64,000 nucleotides of DNA from Acidobacteriota bacterium (GTDB lineage: Bacteria > Acidobacteriota > Thermoanaerobaculia > Gp7-AA8): assembly GCA_021325515.1 (NCBI GenBank), contig JAJPHC010000002.1:1-64000 (forward strand), given 5' to 3'. This document shows, in pieces, positions 15,161 to 48,331 of the stretch. The translations under genes and the position numbers were made by a program. Within the stretch, counting starts at the first letter, position 1; each line of letters opens with the position of its first letter. Under the pieces are notes generated by a model. That model had not been told where the DNA came from. It was given only the letters and a program-made list of their open reading frames with translations, and did not search any database.

Positions 15161-17302
15161 GTGTTCCTTTCGCGCAAGTACGTCCCTCTTCTGGTCCTCC
15201 CACCGCTGTTGACACTACTGCCTCTGTCATTCGCGTTTCTCCATGAGGCGCTGCCGGGAGCCGCGTCGTGGCGCTGGATTGTGATTCCGCCGGTCCTCGC
15301 GTACGGCCTCGGCGCGGTGCTCTTCCACCTCGCCGTGCAGCCCGCGGTCCGCGATGCGGAACGCTCGATCCTGCAGAGCCTCGATGTGAGCGAGGCGGTC
15401 ACCCATTGCCTTGCGCGAACCACCGCCGCTTCTTTCATCCTCTGGGCGGCAACCGGAGCGTTGCTCGCGATCGCAGGGACTGCACTCCTGCTCAACACGT
15501 TCAAAGGTCTGCAATGCTTCGGAATCGCAGCGATGATCGTTGCGGTGCCGGCGATGGCGTGGTCGTACTGGTGCGGGAAGAGCATGCTCCTCGGCGCCTC
15601 CAGCGGTGCAGGAGCGGTGACGTATCGCGGCCGCATCTATTCGATCGGAGTGAAGATCGCGATGGTCTTCCTCGGATTCTTCGCGACGTCGATTGGCGCG
15701 CTCGTGCAGCTCACGGCGTCGCATCGCGGGGATGCGACGAGCTACGCGCTCTTCATCGCGCTCGTAACGATGATCGCGTTCAGCCTGGCGATCTACTTTC
15801 TCGCGCGTGACGTGACGCGTCCGATCGTTCAACTGATGCGCATCGCAGCCGATCTCGCCGAGGGACGCTTCGACTCTGATCCGCATCTCTTTTCCGATGA
15901 CGAGATCGGGCAGCTCGCGCGGAGCTTCGCCGTCACCCATGGCAATCTGCGAACGCTCATCGGAAGTGTCGGCCGGAGCGGCGGTGCAATCAGCGAAGGA
16001 GTGCGTCTGATCTCGGCCGGAACGGAGACGCTGGTCACCGGCGCCCGCGAACAGAGCGGATCGGCCGAGCAGTCGGCGAGCGCAGTGAATGAGGTGAAGA
16101 AGGAAGCGCAGTCGGTGCAGCAGGCAGTGGGCAAGGTCGCCGAGCTCACGGACGATTCTGCGGAACGGGCAACGGAGCTTCGCGCCTCTTCGGAGGAAGT
16201 CGCGCGCCGGATGGAAGAGCTCTTCCTCTCGGTCGACAAGAGCAGTTCGGGGACGACGGAGATCGATGCGGCTGCCGTTGAGATGACGAGCCGGACGGCA
16301 ACACTGTCCGGGATCGCATCCGACGTGCTGGTGTTCGTCGCGCAGATGGATGCAACGACGACACAGATACATCGGACGGCGAGTGAGACCGCGGATCTGT
16401 CGCAGCAGGTGCAGCAGAACGCCGATGAAGGAAGGAAAGCTGTGCGCGACACGGTGGAAGGCATCCGTCACGCGCAGAGCTCGACGCGGAAGACGTCGGA
16501 GGCATTCGAGTCGCTCCAGCAGTCGCTGGGACAGATCGATCAGATTCTTCTGTTCATCGATGAGGTGACGAACCGGACGAACCTGCTCTCGTTCAACGCG
16601 GCGATCATCGCGGCGCAGGCAGGGCAGAACGACTTCGGATTTTCGGTGATCGCGGACGAAGTGCGCCAGCTCGCCGAGCGCACGCGCAGTGCGACGAAAG
16701 AGATCTCCACGATCCTTCGCGGCCTGCAGCCGGTGACGCGGCAGGCGATGGACGCGATGAACGAAGGTGTGACCCGCGTCGATGACACGGTCGCACTCGC
16801 CAATAACGCCGTTGCAGCTCTGGAGACGATTCTCGGCAGCGCATCGAAATCGCTGGAGATGTCGCAGTCGATCTCCGCGGCACTGCAGGAACAGACGCGC
16901 GCAACGCGGCATCTGCATGCAGTGACCGCGAAGATGTCCGACACGATCAGCGAGATCGACCGTGGAACGCAGGGGCAGGCCGAAGCGACACGCCTCCTTG
17001 CCGGTGAAGCGGAACGGGTGCGCGACATCGCGAGCCTGGTGCAGGAGGCATCGCGCGAACAACTGGCGTCAGCGGGCGGGATCGCGAGAGCCATGGAGGA
17101 AATCGCCGCCGGCGTCAAACTGATCGGCGAACGCCTCGTCCGCCAGATCACCCACACCGATCAGGTTGCCGGCGCTTCGAAAGTGACCCTGACGATCGCC
17201 CGCAAAAACGACGACATCGCGAACCAGTTCAGCGCAGCGCTGATGGCACTCGTGGAGAGCGGAAGAGCGTTCGATGCCCAGGTGGCGAGGTTCAGGGTGT
17301 GA
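15161..17302 (+). CDS. Methyl-accepting chemotaxis protein without periplasmic sensor
   Basis: 713 residues. Six predicted membrane helices occupy about 8-27, 38-58, 90-112, 117-137, 160-183 and 193-214 with very short loops; there is no ordinary two-helix plus large ligand domain. A HAMP linker (about 215-265, RPIVQLMRIAADLAEGRF, DEIGQLARSFA) leads to a long coiled signalling domain. The hairpin tip EVTNRTNLLSFNAAIIAA (about 467-484) matches the MCP consensus, with Ser-Phe and Ile variations at positions that are usually LA and E. Signals would come from the membrane itself (energy or fluidity) or a partner. GAGGTG precedes the GTG start. It may serve the pilus cluster that faces it. Confidence 0.92.
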   Translation: MFLSRKYVPLLVLPPLLTLLPLSFAFLHEALPGAASWRWIVIPPVLAYGLGAVLFHLAVQPAVRDAERSILQSLDVSEAVTHCLARTTAASFILWAATGALLAIAGTALLLNTFKGLQCFGIAAMIVAVPAMAWSYWCGKSMLLGASSGAGAVTYRGRIYSIGVKIAMVFLGFFATSIGALVQLTASHRGDATSYALFIALVTMIAFSLAIYFLARDVTRPIVQLMRIAADLAEGRFDSDPHLFSDDEIGQLARSFAVTHGNLRTLIGSVGRSGGAISEGVRLISAGTETLVTGAREQSGSAEQSASAVNEVKKEAQSVQQAVGKVAELTDDSAERATELRASSEEVARRMEELFLSVDKSSSGTTEIDAAAVEMTSRTATLSGIASDVLVFVAQMDATTTQIHRTASETADLSQQVQQNADEGRKAVRDTVEGIRHAQSSTRKTSEAFESLQQSLGQIDQILLFIDEVTNRTNLLSFNAAIIAAQAGQNDFGFSVIADEVRQLAERTRSATKEISTILRGLQPVTRQAMDAMNEGVTRVDDTVALANNAVAALETILGSASKSLEMSQSISAALQEQTRATRHLHAVTAKMSDTISEIDRGTQGQAEATRLLAGEAERVRDIASLVQEASREQLASAGGIARAMEEIAAGVKLIGERLVRQITHTDQVAGASKVTLTIARKNDDIANQFSAALMALVESGRAFDAQVARFRV

Positions 17303-17418
17303 TGATGGGACGGATGGGACGGATAGGCCTATGGGACCTATAGGACCTATGGGCGGAGACCATTCCGCCGTTCCGCCTATAGGTCCCATAGGTCCTATAG
17401 GTCCCATTAGTCCCATCA
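17303..17418. repeat. Nonamer-based palindrome, copy 2
   Basis: Left part 17303-17354 and right part 17373-17418 are inverted copies built from 9-bp units (TGGGACGGA, TGGGACCTA, TAGGACCTA; TCCCATAGG, TCCTATAGG). It shares a core of over 20 bp with copy 1 at 2185-2266. The two arms differ by one unit in length. It fills the gap between the chemoreceptor stop and the convergent pilin gene stop. Confidence 0.85.
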
Positions 17419-17423
17419 CACCC

Positions 17424-18446
17424 TCAGAAGTTTGCCGAGGTCGTCACAAACCCCTGCTGGGCTTCGTAGGTGTTCGAGCCGTACCTCGCCATCATGAGGA
17501 CGCGCGTCATTACCTTGCGTGCCTTTGCCGGTCCGGCGATTTTCACTTCGAAGCCTGAGGGGAAATCGGGCAGTGTGTTGTCGGGCTTTGCAAACTTCGC
17601 GATGCTCACCGGCAGCGGAAAGGAACCGAACGCAACGGAGTAATCCATGCGTCCTGAGATGCGGCCGCCCTTGAGCTCGGGGAAGAGTGAGCTCGTCGAG
17701 GCAATGGAGATCGTCGGTCTGTTGATGGCCGAGCCCCAGTTTCCATTCGATGGAATCGTGTAGAACGCGCTGGCGAGGGGCTGGCCCGGATTCCACGCGG
17801 TCGTGATGCCCGCTGTGCTCAACGCGGCTCCGATCGCCTGGACCTGGGCCCGCGTCAGAGCGCTCAACTGGAAGTAATCGGCGTACTCGACGCTCGTGCT
17901 CTGGAGAAGATCGAGAGTGTAGGCGCTCGTCGAGAACTTGCGATCCGTCGTCGGCGATAGAAAGAAGTATTCGAAGCGATAGCGATCGGCGAGGAACTCC
18001 ACGTCGGGCGTCGTGCGGTCGCCGTCATCGTCATACATGATCGACATCGGCTCCAGCTGCCGCACGATGAGCAGCGAGTTGCCGGTATAGCGGGTCGCGC
18101 CGTCGGGAGAGATCGTCGAGTCAGCCTGAAGAATCGGCAGCAGCGTAGTGGTCCATGACGTATAGCGGGCGGGAATCTGAAGGGCACTGCGATAGGCCGC
18201 TCCGTCCGCGTCTTCCTGAAAGACCTGACGCGCCTGGACGATCTCCGTCTGCAGCGTGTTGGTGGCGCGCTGCGTCATGGTGGTCAGATCGTTGTGGCTC
18301 TCGTTGAACATCGTGACGCGCAGCGTCTGATCCATGATCGAGTAGACGACGAGCATCAATGCGGAGATCACGGCCAACGCGACCGAGACTTCGACGAGTG
18401 AGAAGCCTTTAGCGGATGATGTACGCGCGCTGCTGATCGGAACCAT
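17424..18446 (-). CDS. PilW/PulJ-like minor prepilin
   Basis: 340 residues. N-terminus MVPISSARTSSAKG then FSLVEVSVALAVISALMLVVYSIMD is a class III prepilin signal: cleavage after G14, Glu at mature position 5 and a hydrophobic helix. The long C-terminal part (FEYFFLSPTTD, TIASTSSLFPELKGG, ARKVMTRVLMMARYG) resembles PilW/PulJ minor pilins, which prime pilus assembly. ATG 18446 is chosen for its GGGGAG ribosome site and because the prepilin peptide begins there. It overlaps the previous pilin gene by 38 bp. Last gene of the minus-strand pilin cluster and convergent with the chemoreceptor. Confidence 0.8.
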   Translation of the reverse strand: MVPISSARTSSAKGFSLVEVSVALAVISALMLVVYSIMDQTLRVTMFNESHNDLTTMTQRATNTLQTEIVQARQVFQEDADGAAYRSALQIPARYTSWTTTLLPILQADSTISPDGATRYTGNSLLIVRQLEPMSIMYDDDGDRTTPDVEFLADRYRFEYFFLSPTTDRKFSTSAYTLDLLQSTSVEYADYFQLSALTRAQVQAIGAALSTAGITTAWNPGQPLASAFYTIPSNGNWGSAINRPTISIASTSSLFPELKGGRISGRMDYSVAFGSFPLPVSIAKFAKPDNTLPDFPSGFEVKIAGPAKARKVMTRVLMMARYGSNTYEAQQGFVTTSANF

Positions 18447-18951
18447 AGTGCAGTGACTCCCCGTCTCGAAATGCTTCGACACGAACTTCGTAATTGGCGC
18501 TGGGAAAGCGATCGGCGGGAACGGCCCAGGCAAACGTCATCATCGGTGTCAGATTGGCTGCGTCCCTTGGTCTGACGCCAGGCTCCGCCTCCGAGTCGTC
18601 GCGCATGTTGAACCACGTGCGGCCGCCGTCGCGGCTGTACTGCGTCGCATACAGCACCGGCAGATCGTCCTCAGGCGGACATTGGCTTCTCTCGCCGTTC
18701 GCCACCCACGACCACTCGACCTGCACGCTCTCCGGATTCGTTACGCTGAAATTCGTCGTCGGATTGATCACCACCAGATGCGGCAACGCGCTGTGCAGGC
18801 GGTTCTCGGTCACCTTCATGACGCGAGTCGCCTGCTCGGCCGTCCAGCAGACGCCGACCGTCAGCACGGAGATGATGCCGAGGACGACGGTGACTTCCGT
18901 CAGCGAGAATCCTCTATCTCTTGATGAATGCGCGGTACTGGTGAAATGCAT
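18409..18951 (-). CDS. Small minor prepilin with Asp-box C-terminal domain
   Basis: 180 residues. MHFTSTAHSSRDRG then FSLTEVTVVLGIISVLTVGV is a prepilin signal (cleavage after G14, Glu5). Residues from about 70 form one compact domain with VEWSW, YSRDGGRTWFNMRDD and WAVPADRFPSANYEVRVEAFR. This same domain ends the 1120-residue prepilin encoded just upstream, so the two are paralogous there. The start overlaps the upstream gene by 38 bp; an ATG at 18969 is an alternative. In pilus systems FimT/GspH-like minor pilins sit at the tip; this role is inferred. Confidence 0.7.
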   Translation of the reverse strand: MHFTSTAHSSRDRGFSLTEVTVVLGIISVLTVGVCWTAEQATRVMKVTENRLHSALPHLVVINPTTNFSVTNPESVQVEWSWVANGERSQCPPEDDLPVLYATQYSRDGGRTWFNMRDDSEAEPGVRPRDAANLTPMMTFAWAVPADRFPSANYEVRVEAFRDGESLHYGSDQQRAYIIR

Positions 18952-21900
18952 AGTGCAGCGGGACCTCATCGCGATACGCCTCAATGCGGATCACGTAGTT
19001 GCCTTTCGGGAAACGGTCGGCGGGAACGGACCACGTGTAAGACGTCGCGGTGATCAGATTCCTCGAGTCGGTGGGACGCACGCCGGCCTGCGCCGGTGAG
19101 TCGTCCCGCATGTTGAGCCATGTGCGGCCGTTGTCGCGGCTGTAGAGCGTCGCGTAGCGAACGGTGACGTCCTCGGCAAAGGTCGCGGAGTAGTCCGGCG
19201 TGTATTTCAGGCCGTCCCACCGCGTCCATTGCGAGCTCCACGTGACGTTGATCGTCGACGGATTGCGAAGGTCGATGTCGTCGTTCGGTGCGGTGATTGC
19301 GATGCGGGGCAGCTCGCGCACGCGTGACGCGTCGAGACTTCCATTGGTGCTGTACAAGCCGCCGGCGAGGAAGCTCTGCACGAGACTGAGGAACGACCAG
19401 CGCGAGATGAACGAAACTCCCGACGTGCCGGTCGGCGAGAGGCCGTTGACGACCACGAACGCCGCGTCGCTGCCGCTGCGCATCGAGAGCAGCGAGCTTC
19501 CCTGAATGTTCGTCGAGTGTTTGTAGTAGCGGGCGAGTGGCGTGAGCGTCGTCGCCGCGCCATACACCGGCTGGAGGAAATGATCGGGATTCATGCTCGT
19601 GTCGTTGATATTGATGTCGAACGGACGCGCATTCGCGATCGAAGCCGGCAGCGGAACATCGTAGGTGTTCGCGATGTCCGTTCCGTCGTTGTCGAGAGTT
19701 CCTGTGGTGTTGTCCTGATACCGGTGGTGGAAGGTCGAGGACGCCGTGCCGCTCCAGAAGAATGTCGTGCTGCCTTCTTCCTGCGGACGGCGCGTCGCGT
19801 TGAAGAACGCTGTTCCGGTGGGAAGATTCGTACCGATCGAGCCGCGGAGCACGCGCGAGAATGTGCCGGCACCGCTGCCTGTCGGAAGATTGCCGTTCGA
19901 CACCCACGTGTTCCACTGCGAATCGGGAGCGAGCTCGCCGAGCCAGGACATCGACCACCAGTAGCTGCCGCTGGAGTTCTCGCGGATGTACTTCACGCCG
20001 CCGCTCTGCGCGTCGGTGATCGACTGCTCGTTGCGCGTGCCGCTGGTGCCGTCGAATGGTTTCGAAGAGACGGAGATGCTGTTCGGGAATCCGTTCGCGG
20101 AGTCGTACCCGATCTCGTTGCCGAGGCCGACGTAGTAGTAGGAGAAGCCGGTCATCGTCGTGTAGACGGCGTGCGAGCGAACGACGGCGGAGCGGAGCAC
20201 CTGATAGATGCGCGGGACGTCGATCTCGAGCATTCCGCTGCGCGTGTCCCACCCATCGTTGTTCGGATCGGTGTCGGAAGTGTTGTTCTTGATGCCGTAC
20301 CAGTTGCCGCTCAGGGCCGGCGCGTCGTATGACCAGCCGGGCCATGAGGAAGCGGCGTTCGCGGCCGACGAATGGAAATCGTCGAAGTAGCGGTTGTAGC
20401 CCATGCCGAGCGAATTGGCGCGGGCGCGGCCCGATGAAGCGTGTGGCGACTTGAGGTCCGCGTAGGGACAATGGCGGGGATCGCCGAGAAACTGAAAGCG
20501 CTCGGTGATGGGCAGATTCGGGTCAGTCGTCGCGTCGCCAAAGATCCAGGAGTCGGTGCCGCGCCACGCATACGTTCGAGAGATATTCGTGGGCGCCGGG
20601 TTCGGGGAATTGCCGATCTGGGTGTCGATCTCGATCATCGAGTTCGACGGAAGTGCCGACGCCGGAATCGTGATCACCCAGCGCGCGGTGTTCTTCTCGA
20701 TGTTGCTGCGGTTGTCGAGCGTCGTCGTGAATGCGTTCGGCGCAGTGCCGTCCGGCAGATTCTCGACCGGCGCAGGGATGTATTCGAGGCCGTACAGACG
20801 CGCGGCCGGTGAGAGCCCGCCGCGATCGCAGGGAGTCGATACGGTCACGCACGGAGACTTCAGCGGAGAGTTGTAGAGCGAATAGACGGTGTCGCTCGCT
20901 GTGTTCGTCGACGACCAGTACATCGTTCCCGGCGTGTTGATCATCGACGCCGTCTGCGTCGAGTACGGCACGTTGCTGATCCCTCCGCTGATCGATGAGA
21001 CATCGAGCGGAGATGGGCTGTAGCGGAGATTCTTCACCGTCACGGTGATCGGGACGTTGAGCGTGTCCGGCACCGAGCCCGGGCTGTTGATGTTCGTGTG
21101 ATACGAGTAGACGCGAAGGTTGATGTTCTCGCTGTTCGTGTAGCGCAGCTTTTCGGGATGCGTCACGACGCGAACGTTCGGCCACGTCGCCGGATCTTTC
21201 GCGGCATCGGCGAAGTTGCGCACGGGAGGGAAGGGGAACAGCTCGCCGTGCAGGTTGATGATGATCGCGTTCTTGTACTGCGAGGGATGCATGTACATGT
21301 CGTCGAACAGGAGCCGCAGCGTCGGCGTGTCGGCAGACTCGAGTCCGGCGGCGACGCGTGCATCGAAGAGAGCGCGCTCTTCGGGATAGCGCATCGCGTT
21401 GTTGTACTGATCGGCGAGAGAGTACGGCAGGCGGTTCGCCGCAGCGTCGTAGCCGTTCACCACGGTGCTGTCGACGCGGACGCGGCCTGAGAAGAAGTCG
21501 GGCGGGTAGTAGTAGTTCACCGCCGAGCCGCTCGGCATCAGGCCCGGATAGAAGTAGACGGAGTCGATCGCCGCGTTCGAATCGTTCGTGCGATTGACGT
21601 AAGGCGTGTAGTAGGGATCGCGGCCATAGGAGAGCTTGCGGACCCAGTGACGGCGGAACTGCAATCCCGGCTGGCGCGCCTCGAGGTCAGCCATCGCGCT
21701 GTCGACGAACGGCACGACGTCCTGCATGTACACCCACCAGCCGGGGATGTTCTCGATGGCGATGAGATAGATGTCGTAGACCTGCGTCGGCGGCGAGTTC
21801 TGTCCGATCGTGCTGAGCACGCTCGCCACCTCGGCGAGCAGACGCTGTCCTCCCTGCTCATTCACGAACACCTTCACGTTCACGATGCGCAGATCGTTCG

Positions 21901-22276
21901 CGCCGGTGATCTTTTGCACGGAGATGCGGCGCTCGAACAGCCACTTTCCTGCTCCCGTGGATGTGTTTCCGCTCGCAGCGCTCGCCGGATCGGTGATCGA
22001 CGTCTGCGTCGTCAACACCGTCTTGTTGGTGACGCCGTCGTCGAACTGGTCGAGCACGACCGCGTTCGCGCCGGTGTTCGACTGCACGAGTGAGCGCAGC
22101 TCCTCGAGCATGGAGATCGCCTTCTGCGTAGCGAACTGTTTGTTGAGATTGTCCTGAGTGCCGCGGTAGGCAGTGGTGAGCATGCCCGAAGAGGCGACGA
22201 TCAGCGTCCCCGTCAGCACCACTGCGATCAGTGCCTCGGCCAGCGTCATGCCTCGTTCGTAGTAGCGATGTTTCAT
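18914..22276 (-). CDS. Giant prepilin-like protein (1120 residues)
   Basis: N-terminus MKHRYYERG then MTLAEALIAVVLTGTLIVASSG is a class III signal (cleavage after G9, Glu at mature position 5). Typical minor pilins have 150-400 residues; this has 1120. After the stalk helix (to about 60) comes an Asn/Ser/Thr-rich extracellular region with many aromatics (about 200-1010: YYTPYVNRTNDSN, YYYPPDFFSGRV, NSPGSVPDTLNVPITVTV, WYGIKNNTSDTDPNN and others), then a C-terminal domain (about 1035-1120) with YSRDNGRTWLNMRDD and WSVPADRFPKGNY shared with the next gene. It probably sits at a pilus tip as an adhesin or DNA/substrate binder, comparable in position to PilY1 or ComZ; this is inferred. One base separates it from the pilX-like stop. 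Confidence 0.75.
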   Translation of the reverse strand: MKHRYYERGMTLAEALIAVVLTGTLIVASSGMLTTAYRGTQDNLNKQFATQKAISMLEELRSLVQSNTGANAVVLDQFDDGVTNKTVLTTQTSITDPASAASGNTSTGAGKWLFERRISVQKITGANDLRIVNVKVFVNEQGGQRLLAEVASVLSTIGQNSPPTQVYDIYLIAIENIPGWWVYMQDVVPFVDSAMADLEARQPGLQFRRHWVRKLSYGRDPYYTPYVNRTNDSNAAIDSVYFYPGLMPSGSAVNYYYPPDFFSGRVRVDSTVVNGYDAAANRLPYSLADQYNNAMRYPEERALFDARVAAGLESADTPTLRLLFDDMYMHPSQYKNAIIINLHGELFPFPPVRNFADAAKDPATWPNVRVVTHPEKLRYTNSENINLRVYSYHTNINSPGSVPDTLNVPITVTVKNLRYSPSPLDVSSISGGISNVPYSTQTASMINTPGTMYWSSTNTASDTVYSLYNSPLKSPCVTVSTPCDRGGLSPAARLYGLEYIPAPVENLPDGTAPNAFTTTLDNRSNIEKNTARWVITIPASALPSNSMIEIDTQIGNSPNPAPTNISRTYAWRGTDSWIFGDATTDPNLPITERFQFLGDPRHCPYADLKSPHASSGRARANSLGMGYNRYFDDFHSSAANAASSWPGWSYDAPALSGNWYGIKNNTSDTDPNNDGWDTRSGMLEIDVPRIYQVLRSAVVRSHAVYTTMTGFSYYYVGLGNEIGYDSANGFPNSISVSSKPFDGTSGTRNEQSITDAQSGGVKYIRENSSGSYWWSMSWLGELAPDSQWNTWVSNGNLPTGSGAGTFSRVLRGSIGTNLPTGTAFFNATRRPQEEGSTTFFWSGTASSTFHHRYQDNTTGTLDNDGTDIANTYDVPLPASIANARPFDININDTSMNPDHFLQPVYGAATTLTPLARYYKHSTNIQGSSLLSMRSGSDAAFVVVNGLSPTGTSGVSFISRWSFLSLVQSFLAGGLYSTNGSLDASRVRELPRIAITAPNDDIDLRNPSTINVTWSSQWTRWDGLKYTPDYSATFAEDVTVRYATLYSRDNGRTWLNMRDDSPAQAGVRPTDSRNLITATSYTWSVPADRFPKGNYVIRIEAYRDEVPLHYAFHQYRAFIKR

Positions 22277-22277
22277 C

Positions 22278-23399
22278 TCAGTTGTCCTTCGTCACGATCC
22301 ACGGCGTTCTGCTGAAGAGGTAGTTGCCCTTCTGCAGCCGGATCTGGTCGAGAATCGAGGGGTCGTAGTCGATCTCCGCGACTTCGGCACCGCTGGAGAG
22401 CTGGACGGGACCGTTGGCGATGACCGAACCGGTGATGCTCGAAGGGGGAGAGATGTTCAGCGTTCCACCGACCCAGACGAGTCCGTTGAAGAACGCATTC
22501 GACTGCGGATTCAGAATGAGATTGCCGAGGACGACGAGGATGCCGCTGCCGGTTAGACGCTTGGTAGGACCGAAGGTGGCATTTCCGCGAATCACGATGA
22601 GCGACATCGTCGGCATCGGATCGGGAAGATCGCGTTCGTCGTCCACGACGATGTCCGCCATGCCGACCAGTTCCTGTTGCGTGACGCCGAAAACGCTGCT
22701 CAGCGCAAACGCGCCATTCGTCGTGTTCTGCGCCGGATTGCCGCTGACAGTGCCGCTGACGCGCGGCGTGCCCGTCGCGGGGGGGTAGGCGATGCCGATT
22801 CCGTTGGTGCCTCCGAGGATGCGGCCGCTGCTGGTGACGTTGACGTTCGTTCCGCGATTCGCGCTCAGAGCAGCGTTGGCGGGCAGCGTCAGTGCGAGGC
22901 GCTGAATCTCGGTGCGCATCGTCTTCTTCGCCAGAATCGTGTTGCCGTTTACGCCCGGGCCGCTGCCGGGGCTGTTCTGCACATAGACGTAGCCGGCCGA
23001 ATCGATCTGCCACACGGTGCCGGCACTGCGGCCGCGCCGCGCACTCACGTCCGTGACTTTCGTCTTCCGCACTTCATAGCGCCCGGTGACGCGGCCGGGG
23101 TCGGAGATCGCGTACGTGCGTACGATTCCGATCGAGGAGTCCTCGGTGTCGGTTCCTGTCGGAGTGAACGCGGTGACAGGCTGAACGCGCTGATGAACGA
23201 ACCAGGAGAGCGCGTTGGTGAGCCCGGCCGAGGCGGCGTTGTAGGCCTGCCCCTGAGAGGTCAGCTGCCGTGCAACCATGCGGCCCGAGTTGCGCGAGAT
23301 CGTCAGTGCCGTGGCCAGCAGCAACAGAATGATCGTGCTCGCGAACAGCACGAGAGCGAGTGCGGCTCCTCGTTCGCCCGATCGGTTCCTTCTAGACAC
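22278..23399 (-). CDS. PilX-like minor pilin component
   Basis: 373 residues. GERGAALALVLFASTIILLLLATALTISRNSG is the typical PilX N-terminal region: an RGAAL start and a hydrophobic helix without the Glu5 of true prepilins. The C-terminal 250 residues are a secreted domain with repeated beta patterns (NVNVTSSGRILGGTNG, TLNISPPSSITGSVIANGPVQLSSGAEV) resembling right-handed parallel or polymer-like repeats; no named family is recognised. GTG 23399 has an AAGGAGA ribosome site 8 nt upstream. First gene of the pilin operon, followed in order by the giant prepilin, the small minor pilin and the PilW-like pilin. Confidence 0.7.
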   Translation of the reverse strand: MSRRNRSGERGAALALVLFASTIILLLLATALTISRNSGRMVARQLTSQGQAYNAASAGLTNALSWFVHQRVQPVTAFTPTGTDTEDSSIGIVRTYAISDPGRVTGRYEVRKTKVTDVSARRGRSAGTVWQIDSAGYVYVQNSPGSGPGVNGNTILAKKTMRTEIQRLALTLPANAALSANRGTNVNVTSSGRILGGTNGIGIAYPPATGTPRVSGTVSGNPAQNTTNGAFALSSVFGVTQQELVGMADIVVDDERDLPDPMPTMSLIVIRGNATFGPTKRLTGSGILVVLGNLILNPQSNAFFNGLVWVGGTLNISPPSSITGSVIANGPVQLSSGAEVAEIDYDPSILDQIRLQKGNYLFSRTPWIVTKDN

Positions 23400-46429: not shown

Positions 46430-48331
46430 ATGCGTAAGTCTTTGATTCTTTTCGCGATCCTTCTGACGCTTCCGGCGGCTGCGCAATGGCGCCGCGGCGG
46501 GTTGTACGGCGCTGATGTTCGTGCGCTGATCGTCGATCCCTCCAACCCTGACCGATATTACGTCGGCACGAGCGGTGGTGAGGTCTACGTTTCGAACGAC
46601 GGCGCGAGAACGTGGACGAGTCCGCGCGTCGGAGTTCCGTTCCCCGGCTACGTCGTCGACAACCTCGTCATCGATCGCAGCGGCCGCCTCTGGGCCGCGT
46701 GCTGGGGACTGTGGGATGGCGGCGTGATCGCCGTGTCCGACGATGGCGGAAAGAACTGGTCGCGGCGCGATGTGGGGCTCGAGGATTTCTCCGTGCGCGC
46801 GATCGCCGTCGATCCGCATGACGAGAACTTCATCGTCGCCGGCGGGCTGACCGGCGTTTATCGCAGCACCGACAGCGGCGCGACATGGACGAAGATCTCC
46901 AATCAGATCAACGTGGAGTCTCTGGCGATCGATCCCCGCACGCACGATCGGATCTACGTCGGCACGTGGCGTCAGGGTTGGCGCACCGATGACGGCGGCG
47001 CGAACTGGAAGCTGATCAACAACGGGATGGTGCTCGACACCGACATGTTCTCGATCACGATGGAGCCGTCGAATCCCGACAGCATCTGGGTGTCGACGTG
47101 CGGCTGGGTCTACAACACGGCCGATCGCGGCGACAACTGGCTCCGCTACCGCAACGGGTTCGACAACCGGCGCATTCACGACATCGAGCTCGATCCCTGC
47201 GATCCCGACGTGCTCTACGCCGGCTCGGTCGCGGGTCTCTATCGCACGGATGATCATGGCCGGAGCTGGTACGCGGTGTCCGACGAGGGGCTCGTCGTGA
47301 ACTCCATCGCCATCACTCCCGAGCGTCCCGATCGCATCGTCCTCGGCGTCGAAGGAGACGGGATCTACATTTCCGAAGATCGCGCGAAGACGTTCGTTCG
47401 CGCGTCCGACGGTTTGCGCAACGTCCGCGTGACGACGGTGATCGCCGATCCGATGCTGCACGACCGCGTCTATGCGGCCGTTGCGTTTGGCGGCGCGGCG
47501 TCGGGCATCTATTCGTCGGACGATGCGGGAAAGACGTGGGCGAAGCTGAGTGCGACGAAGCTTCCCGAAGTGCTTTCGCTCGTCATCAATGACGACAAGG
47601 AATCCGACGCCCGCTTTCTCGCGGGAACCGACAAGGGATTCTTCTGGAGCGCGGACGGAAAGGAATGGACGCAGAGCGCGCCGGCGAATACGCCGATTCG
47701 CGTCGATCGCATCGTCCGCTTCAACCACACACGCGCGTTCGCGGCGACCTCGGAAGGCGTGTTCACGACGCGCGACGGCGGGAAATCGTGGTACGTCCTC
47801 GCCGGCGAGGATCAGCGGACGGTGGATCTCGCTCTCGGCCAGATCGGTGAGCGGCGCGCGCTCTATGCGCTGACGAGCAACGGTCTCGCGGTGTTCGACG
47901 GCGAGCGCTGGACGCATGTCGCCGGTGCGCCGGCCCGTGGACGCACGCTGGCAGTGAGAACGCTCGGGACGGCGCAGGTCGTCTTCATCGCCGGCGCGCA
48001 GGGCGTGAAGGCAGGACAGCTCGATGACGAGAAGCGCTGGCACGATGTCCAGGCGCCGGACGCGCAGTACGCTTCTGTTTTTGCCGGCAATGACCTGCTG
48101 TTCCTGGCGTCACGCCAGCAGCGCGAGCTGCTGGTCGGCGACCCGCATCAGAGCGACTGGCTCTCGGTGGAGATGCCGTCGCGCAGTGCGGAAGTGACGG
48201 CCGTCGCGCTCGACGCGTTCAATCACGACCGCCTGTACGTGGGAACGCTCGGCGAGGGCATCTACGTGCACGAAGGCAAGCCGCAGAAGTGGACGGCGGC
48301 GACACCGACGGCGGCGCTGGGCTCGCAGTGA
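46430..48331 (+). CDS. Secreted Asp-box beta-propeller protein (Vps10/sortilin-like)
   Basis: 633 residues. Signal peptide MRKSLILFAILLTLPAAAQ. About nine Asp-box repeats (SxDxGxTW form) can be read, e.g. SNDGARTWTS, STDSGATWTK, SDDGGKNWSR, TDDGGANWKL, TDDHGRSWYA, SSDDAGKTWAK, TRDGGKSWYV. This makes a seven- to ten-bladed propeller, found in sialidase-, Ycf48- and sortilin-type proteins; no catalytic residues are evident. Its role may be binding of glycans or a folding partner. It is alone on the plus strand. Confidence 0.8.
   Translation: MRKSLILFAILLTLPAAAQWRRGGLYGADVRALIVDPSNPDRYYVGTSGGEVYVSNDGARTWTSPRVGVPFPGYVVDNLVIDRSGRLWAACWGLWDGGVIAVSDDGGKNWSRRDVGLEDFSVRAIAVDPHDENFIVAGGLTGVYRSTDSGATWTKISNQINVESLAIDPRTHDRIYVGTWRQGWRTDDGGANWKLINNGMVLDTDMFSITMEPSNPDSIWVSTCGWVYNTADRGDNWLRYRNGFDNRRIHDIELDPCDPDVLYAGSVAGLYRTDDHGRSWYAVSDEGLVVNSIAITPERPDRIVLGVEGDGIYISEDRAKTFVRASDGLRNVRVTTVIADPMLHDRVYAAVAFGGAASGIYSSDDAGKTWAKLSATKLPEVLSLVINDDKESDARFLAGTDKGFFWSADGKEWTQSAPANTPIRVDRIVRFNHTRAFAATSEGVFTTRDGGKSWYVLAGEDQRTVDLALGQIGERRALYALTSNGLAVFDGERWTHVAGAPARGRTLAVRTLGTAQVVFIAGAQGVKAGQLDDEKRWHDVQAPDAQYASVFAGNDLLFLASRQQRELLVGDPHQSDWLSVEMPSRSAEVTAVALDAFNHDRLYVGTLGEGIYVHEGKPQKWTAATPTAALGSQ

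Follow-up and report, generated by a model that had tools for sequence, protein, structure and literature searches.

In the known tip complexes of type IV pili, minor pilins of the PilV, PilW and PilX types occur together with PilY1 (PMC7541494). In Streptococcus sanguinis, PilB and PilC each combine a complete pilin module with a grafted bulky module that mediates ligand binding and for which exposure at the tip has been proposed (PMC8179133, PMC9934059). In the DNA-binding ComZ of Thermus thermophilus a large beta-solenoid domain is built into the pilin (PMC6561018). Large pilins have been argued to fit at the tip only, both for ComZ (PMC6561018) and for the modular pilins (PMC8179133). Here, we report a prepilin of 1120 residues, hereafter the giant, from the window, i.e. 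the whole stretch of 64,000 nucleotides that was analysed. It resembles PilB and PilC of S. sanguinis in carrying a bulky graft behind its pilin module, and ComZ in harbouring a large domain within a pilin. With PilY1 it shares a very large size, a location among genes for PilV/W/X-like minor pilins and a probable role in priming and at the tip. The ectodomain of about 960 residues is free of Pfam domains, vWA and lectin included, is longer than the most extreme example of multiple added domains, 860 residues, in the survey of modular pilins (PMC8179133, PMC9934059) and, unlike the modules of PilB and PilC, constitutes one conserved family in three phyla. Where ComZ has a beta-solenoid, the giant combines an alpha/beta core, which contains an Ig-like insert, with a sandwich at the C-terminus. 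A further contrast is with PilY1, a non-pilin protein whose C-terminal part is a beta-propeller (PF05567); no such domain is found in the giant, which is a prepilin. Literature searches found no description of the giant prepilin family.

The giant prepilin and its family

The 1120-residue prepilin of the original prediction is a genuine open reading frame at 18914-22276 on the minus strand, but the range 18409-22276 that had been given for it holds two genes, the giant and a neighbour at 18409-18951 (Table 1). The class III signal recognised earlier was confirmed: MKHRYYERG, a short hydrophilic leader ending in Gly, precedes a hydrophobic stretch that begins MTLAE, with Glu at +5, as is characteristic of type IV prepilins, and export of the protein is predicted from this signal. 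Profile matches to this end are weak. The Pfam N_methyl model gave 15.8 bits for the giant alone, under the cut-off of 21.2, and TIGR02523 (PilV) matched residues 8-99 only, with E 2.7e-5 and 24.7 bits, which is short of the curated cut-off of 52.2 bits for a PilV equivalog. Across the family N_methyl was matched by 27 of the 41 members, at best with E 9.8e-11. An AlphaFold model of the whole giant (pLDDT 84.7, pTM 0.82) places the pilin helix and sheet in residues 1-157, then the core with its insert, and the tail sandwich in residues 986-1120. Its N-terminus is a single long helix (12-66) followed by a four-stranded sheet (strands 106-155), the helix and antiparallel sheet head of type IV prepilins, and according to the model these make up an entire pilin module, about 157 residues long. 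With an additional domain that is not pilus-specific joined to this module, the giant is built as a modular pilin.

Table 1. Positions in the window of the giant prepilin, its modules and the adjoining prepilin genes.
Feature	Positions	Strand	Basis
PilX-like protein, 373 aa, upstream partner	22278..23399	-	N-terminal hydrophobic segment and position
Giant PilV-like modular prepilin, 1120 aa	18914..22276	-	ATG-start ORF; full-length homologs at 33-54% identity; pilin module in AlphaFold model
Giant residues 1-157: leader, long N-terminal helix, 4-stranded pilin head	21806..22276	-	Sequence, model, weak PilV/GspI/N_methyl matches
Giant residues 158-985: predicted mixed alpha/beta ectodomain core with insert	19322..21805	-	Model pLDDT 82, pTM 0.90; conservation 41/41
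Ig/cohesin-like insert, giant residues ~366-575	20552-21181	-	Best VIA Z 7.2-7.8
Giant residues 986-1120: tail, predicted Fn3-like sandwich, one Asp-box, LHYxxHQxxxFIxR end	18917..19321	-	Alignment, VIA
Chimeric small prepilin, 180 aa from ATG; leader MHFTSTAHSSRDRG, then FSLTEV	18409..18951	-	PilW-like N-helix and giant-tail copy
Tail-domain copy in small prepilin	18412..18789	-	Alignment; sister to giant's tail 100/96
Overlap 1: giant 3' end / small-prepilin 5' end, 38 bp	18914..18951	-	Leader out of frame over LHYAFHQYRAFIKR
Overlap 2: small-prepilin 3' end / pilW-like 5' end, 38 bp	18409..18446	-	Same register as overlap 1
PilW/GspJ-like minor prepilin, 340 aa	17424..18446	-	N_methyl E 1.1e-5, GspJ E 4e-4

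By sequence alignment the giant is a member of a conserved prepilin family of about 1040-1500 aa that is distributed in Acidobacteriota, Planctomycetota and Elusimicrobiota. An alignment-based query of genome contigs recovered 44 loci where a single-sequence scan of the same contigs gave none, and 41 family sequences were alignable over essentially their whole length. Within the GTDB family of the window, relatives were present in six further genomes; five were full-length or nearly so and one was represented by the tail only at a contig edge. Further giants were found in other Acidobacteriota families as well as in the two other phyla. Only the pilin end of the family is recognised by Pfam or NCBIfam, apart from inserts specific to single members, namely a PA14 domain in one giant and a kelch/propeller-like insert in another (L062). 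In one locus from the Elusimicrobia the giant and PilW-like genes are immediately followed by a gene for a 964-aa paralog that consists of core and tail (L058:13638-16532). Where the giant has its pilin part, this paralog has what by eye was judged a Sec-type signal; the ectodomain therefore appears to be a separable module.

Ectodomain core, insert and tail

Residues D168, W180, W181, N341-H343-G344-E345, R353-N354-D357, E592, G598-D599-R601, Y605 and D607 of the core are invariant in all 41 sequences from three phyla, and most of them are polar or aromatic. Since so many positions never vary, a putative binding or catalytic site in the core is suggested. The core matched nothing in Pfam or NCBIfam, and in a structural search with a core-only model the insert alone gave matches, which were cohesin-like and adhesin-like, a result not to be taken as evidence of a new fold. 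Structure prediction had been proposed for the middle of the protein; modest matches (Z below 8) were gained for the insert and the tail only. With the whole model, Foldseek listed C3, factor XIII and alpha-2-macroglobulin, which are chance matches among multi-domain proteins (TM under 0.15), and a profile search of PDB sequences yielded pilin N-termini and one chance sialidase Asp-box only. A caspase- or C25-like core, considered because of an HG motif and the C25 gene nearby, found no support from hhalign.

The invariant residues could also be those of an enzyme. The giant would then be an enzyme-bearing pseudopilin whose active site is built from D, H, E and R residues of the core, with the fibre serving to retain a secreted enzyme at the surface. 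We consider this unlikely, but it is not without merit, as the invariance of D168, H343-G344-E345, R353, D357, E592, D599, R601 and D607 exceeds the expectation for a fast-evolving adhesin and a version of the ectodomain with a signal peptide exists. However, no enzyme family was found among Pfam, NCBIfam or PDB sequences, the core (modelled with its insert) was without a structural match, and its hhalign comparison with one Peptidase C25 member, the neighbouring peptidase, gave a probability of 0.3. A ligand-binding ectodomain is the reading that we carry forward.

The tail is predicted to be a single beta-sandwich and is most like fibronectin-III folds, at Z about 7, which is not decisive; the best VIA match of the tail had Z 7.5 with rmsd 2.4 over 92 aligned residues and was likewise below 8. 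FnIII modules such as that of CbhA are beta-sandwiches comparable in size, matched by VIA with Z 6.7-6.8 across 86-89 residues, but Z stays under 8 and the single Asp-box hairpin and the LHYxxHQ end of the giant's tail are atypical of FnIII. The Asp-box, YSRDNGRTW, occurs in one copy within the one sandwich domain. A BNR/sialidase propeller was rejected for the tail, in which the one Asp-box is sub-threshold and the model has a single sandwich. The propeller domain of PilY1 (T4P_PilY1, PF05567) was absent from the giant and from all 41 family members.

Operon and pilus machinery

At most loci with enough flanking sequence the gene order is PilX-like, giant, PilW-like, and the tail forms the end of the giant, although the upstream gene was ambiguous by automatic reading in several high-GC Planctomycetota contigs. 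An open reading frame equivalent to the PilX-like gene precedes the giant in many relatives; the PilX-like protein of the window itself (22278-23399) had no Pfam match. The genome of the window encodes PilM and a PilQ-type secretin, and genes for PilB-like and PilC-like proteins and a prepilin peptidase adjoin the giant operon in relatives, so by gene content a type IVa machine is present. These same genes speak against the trio being part of a type II secretion system or another type IV filament machine, in which the giant would be a large pseudopilin resembling GspI. This assignment draws on additional weak matches to the GspI, GspJ and GspH models and is in our judgement distinctly improbable; a type IVa-like pilus is the more fitting context for the giant.

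A chimeric prepilin in a single genome

The neighbouring gene encodes a small prepilin that matches N_methyl with E 2.8e-5, above the cut-off, and whose sequence contains no separate pilin head. That its C-terminus shares a domain with the giant was correctly seen in the original prediction, but the shared part extends over about 130 residues at 47% identity and not over 85 (residues 988-1120 of the giant, aligned to residues 66-191 of the small ORF in its 191-aa reading). The match was found in a search of the own genome with E 2.9e-31. A profile search, on the failure of which the shared domain was to be given up, recovered it with E 9.9e-38, using a profile that contained the window's two tails. 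In the small prepilin the conserved W-RWDG segment of the tail has been lost, while the Asp-box and the LHY end are retained. Relatives, for which a check of this point had been proposed, do not keep both copies: the small gene was found in the window's genome alone and was absent from every relative examined, where all readable junctions proceed from the giant to the PilW-like gene. Apart from the window, the tail domain was met as part of giants only, a match in G005 at the edge of a contig being the remnant of a truncated one, and the tail of the giant is therefore the source of the copy.

For the pair of tails dN was about 0.46 and dS about 1.6, and the resulting dN/dS of about 0.3 is a rough guide from one pair in one genome with near-saturated dS. 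Since most of the change after the duplication falls on the small branch (in the tail tree 1.24, compared with 0.068), the ratio suggests that the small copy stayed under constraint. This bears on whether the small gene is simply a decaying duplicate without function, for which its long branch and the loss of several residues, the RWDG motif among them, could be cited. Such decay is improbable in view of the intact frame of 180 codons and the preserved prepilin signal and Asp-box, and it would sit poorly with a dN/dS of this size at the dS given above.

Probable duplication across a gene junction

The two tails of the window are sisters, with support 100/96, inside a well-supported group of family sequences. 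The earlier view that one domain was copied is borne out in that respect, and the copied unit evidently spanned a gene junction and also carried the start of pilW. At both junctions in the window the ATG of the downstream gene lies inside the LHY codons and the codon for the prepilin cleavage glycine, at which the helix starts, is found 1 base past the stop. In the other junctions measured the helix starts 5-131 bases after the stop, except in L058, where this distance is also 1. The DNA of the giant-small junction aligns to that of the small-pilW junction without gaps, with 63% identity before the stop and 65% and 62% after it, and identity drops to 33% where the small gene turns into tail, the expected end of the homology. 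Compared with 103 prepilin starts (mean 40.7, sd 5.8), the DNA of the small N-helix was nearest to the genome's own pilW at 62.5%, the next best being 53%. At the protein level, where the shortness and convergence of a pilin N-helix do not allow it to be placed on its own, the N-helix of the giant in G013 scored slightly above the own pilW.

The sisterhood of the tails, the gapless junctions, the pilW-like N-helix and the identical overlaps are all explained by one tandem duplication of about 505 bp, and the simplest account of these sequence data is thus that the small gene arose by an old, lineage-specific duplication across the junction of giant and pilW. That a tail copy was instead fused, in an event of its own, to an unrelated pilin, as the general likeness of pilin N-helices and the protein-level score of that one relative's giant might suggest, is very improbable given that the DNA match continues through stop and overlap, that the register is identical at both junctions and that the own pilW is nearest. 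The duplication across the junction also offers a readable case of how a gene overlap and a single tandem duplication can give rise to a new protein that is in frame, secreted and probably competent for assembly; one event would suffice because a start, a prepilin signal and an entire domain are all contained in the copied stretch.

Proposed mechanism

A tip-located, ligand-binding giant minor pilin, taken jointly with an origin of the small tail-bearing pilin by duplication of the junction, is the account that we favour with some confidence. The giant would occupy the position of PilV in a type IVa-like pilus and bear its ectodomain of about 960 residues as a graft. If the known tip complexes are taken as a guide, the giant and the PilX-like and PilW-like minor pilins may co-assemble and initiate the filament. 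The giant, which we infer to be too big for the pilus shaft, would remain at the tip, where its ectodomain could touch a surface, a polymer or another ligand. In analogy with the systems described above it is probably both minor pilin and tip effector. As for the small gene, the start of pilW would first have come to lie within the 3' end of the giant gene; the stretch of about 505 bp comprising the giant's tail, the overlap and the pilW helix would then have been duplicated in tandem, with the result that a pilW helix was fused in frame to a second copy of the tail. Through its helix the small protein probably takes a place next to the giant, where this second tail domain would be displayed; we guess that it might serve as an extra subunit or a docking surface.

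Giant prepilins and PilY1

Many bacteria have type IV pili without PilY1, and for these the giant family provides a concrete tip candidate with a conserved operon. The original prediction was of a tip adhesin replacing PilY1. A tip adhesin would be in keeping with the giant's place in the minor-pilin operon, with its size and with its Ig/cohesin-like insert. PF05567 was detected in 103 of the 149 genomes of the class, a survey that serves as positive control for its absence elsewhere; the domain was found in 0/18 genomes of the window's family and in 103/131 of the remainder. A true giant was present in 7 of these 18 genomes and nowhere else in the class, while 11 genomes of the family, several of them incomplete, had neither giant nor PilY1. 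PF05567 was likewise absent from the 38 further giant-bearing genomes, so that giant and PilY1 occurred together in none of 45, a count that is informative in Acidobacteriota only. In the sample of that phylum, 10 genomes with a giant and 115 with PilY1 showed zero overlap (P 0.03 ignoring kinship), and in one family (f41) the giant is found in one genus and PilY1 in another. The Elusimicrobiota are uninformative with regard to replacement because PilY1 is missing there in general (PF05567 in 0/199 genomes).

The giant was thus never seen with PF05567, but the exclusion is clustered in clades. Because of this clustering, the absence of PF05567 from Elusimicrobiota and the 11 family genomes with neither protein, the data are to be read as consistent with replacement of PilY1, and a giant acting as tip protein in its place is plausible. 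The wider proposal that giants are a separate class of tip proteins, in which the adhesin is itself a minor pilin and takes over the function of PilY1 in several phyla, and that in the window's lineage a duplication across overlapping genes made a second tip pilin in one step, is put forward tentatively and with some doubt.

Other large prepilins and neighbouring genes

A strongly diverged giant prepilin of 2107 aa is encoded in a Planctomycetota genome (L071:8995-15315), and two giant-type genes are present on a single contig of an unclassified bacterium (L073:2-1750 and L073:8914-13524). A Peptidase_C25 protein (E 9.2e-77) is encoded near the giant pilin operon of G015 (L019:3-3218). The window's genome contains, on contig C9, a second and unrelated giant prepilin of about 1016 aa from its signal (L026:5196-8480, minus strand) beside a PilX-like protein of 798 aa (L026:2791-5187, minus strand); this pair had no family match beyond N_methyl. 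In the window itself, an open frame with low-complexity repeats (MGPIGPMG/PPIGPIGPIGPISPI) at 17274-17558 is situated at a convergent end, with a chemoreceptor gene on one side and the pilW-like gene on the other, and a secreted-type protein with a Sortilin-Vps10/BNR propeller is encoded at 46430-48331 on the plus strand.
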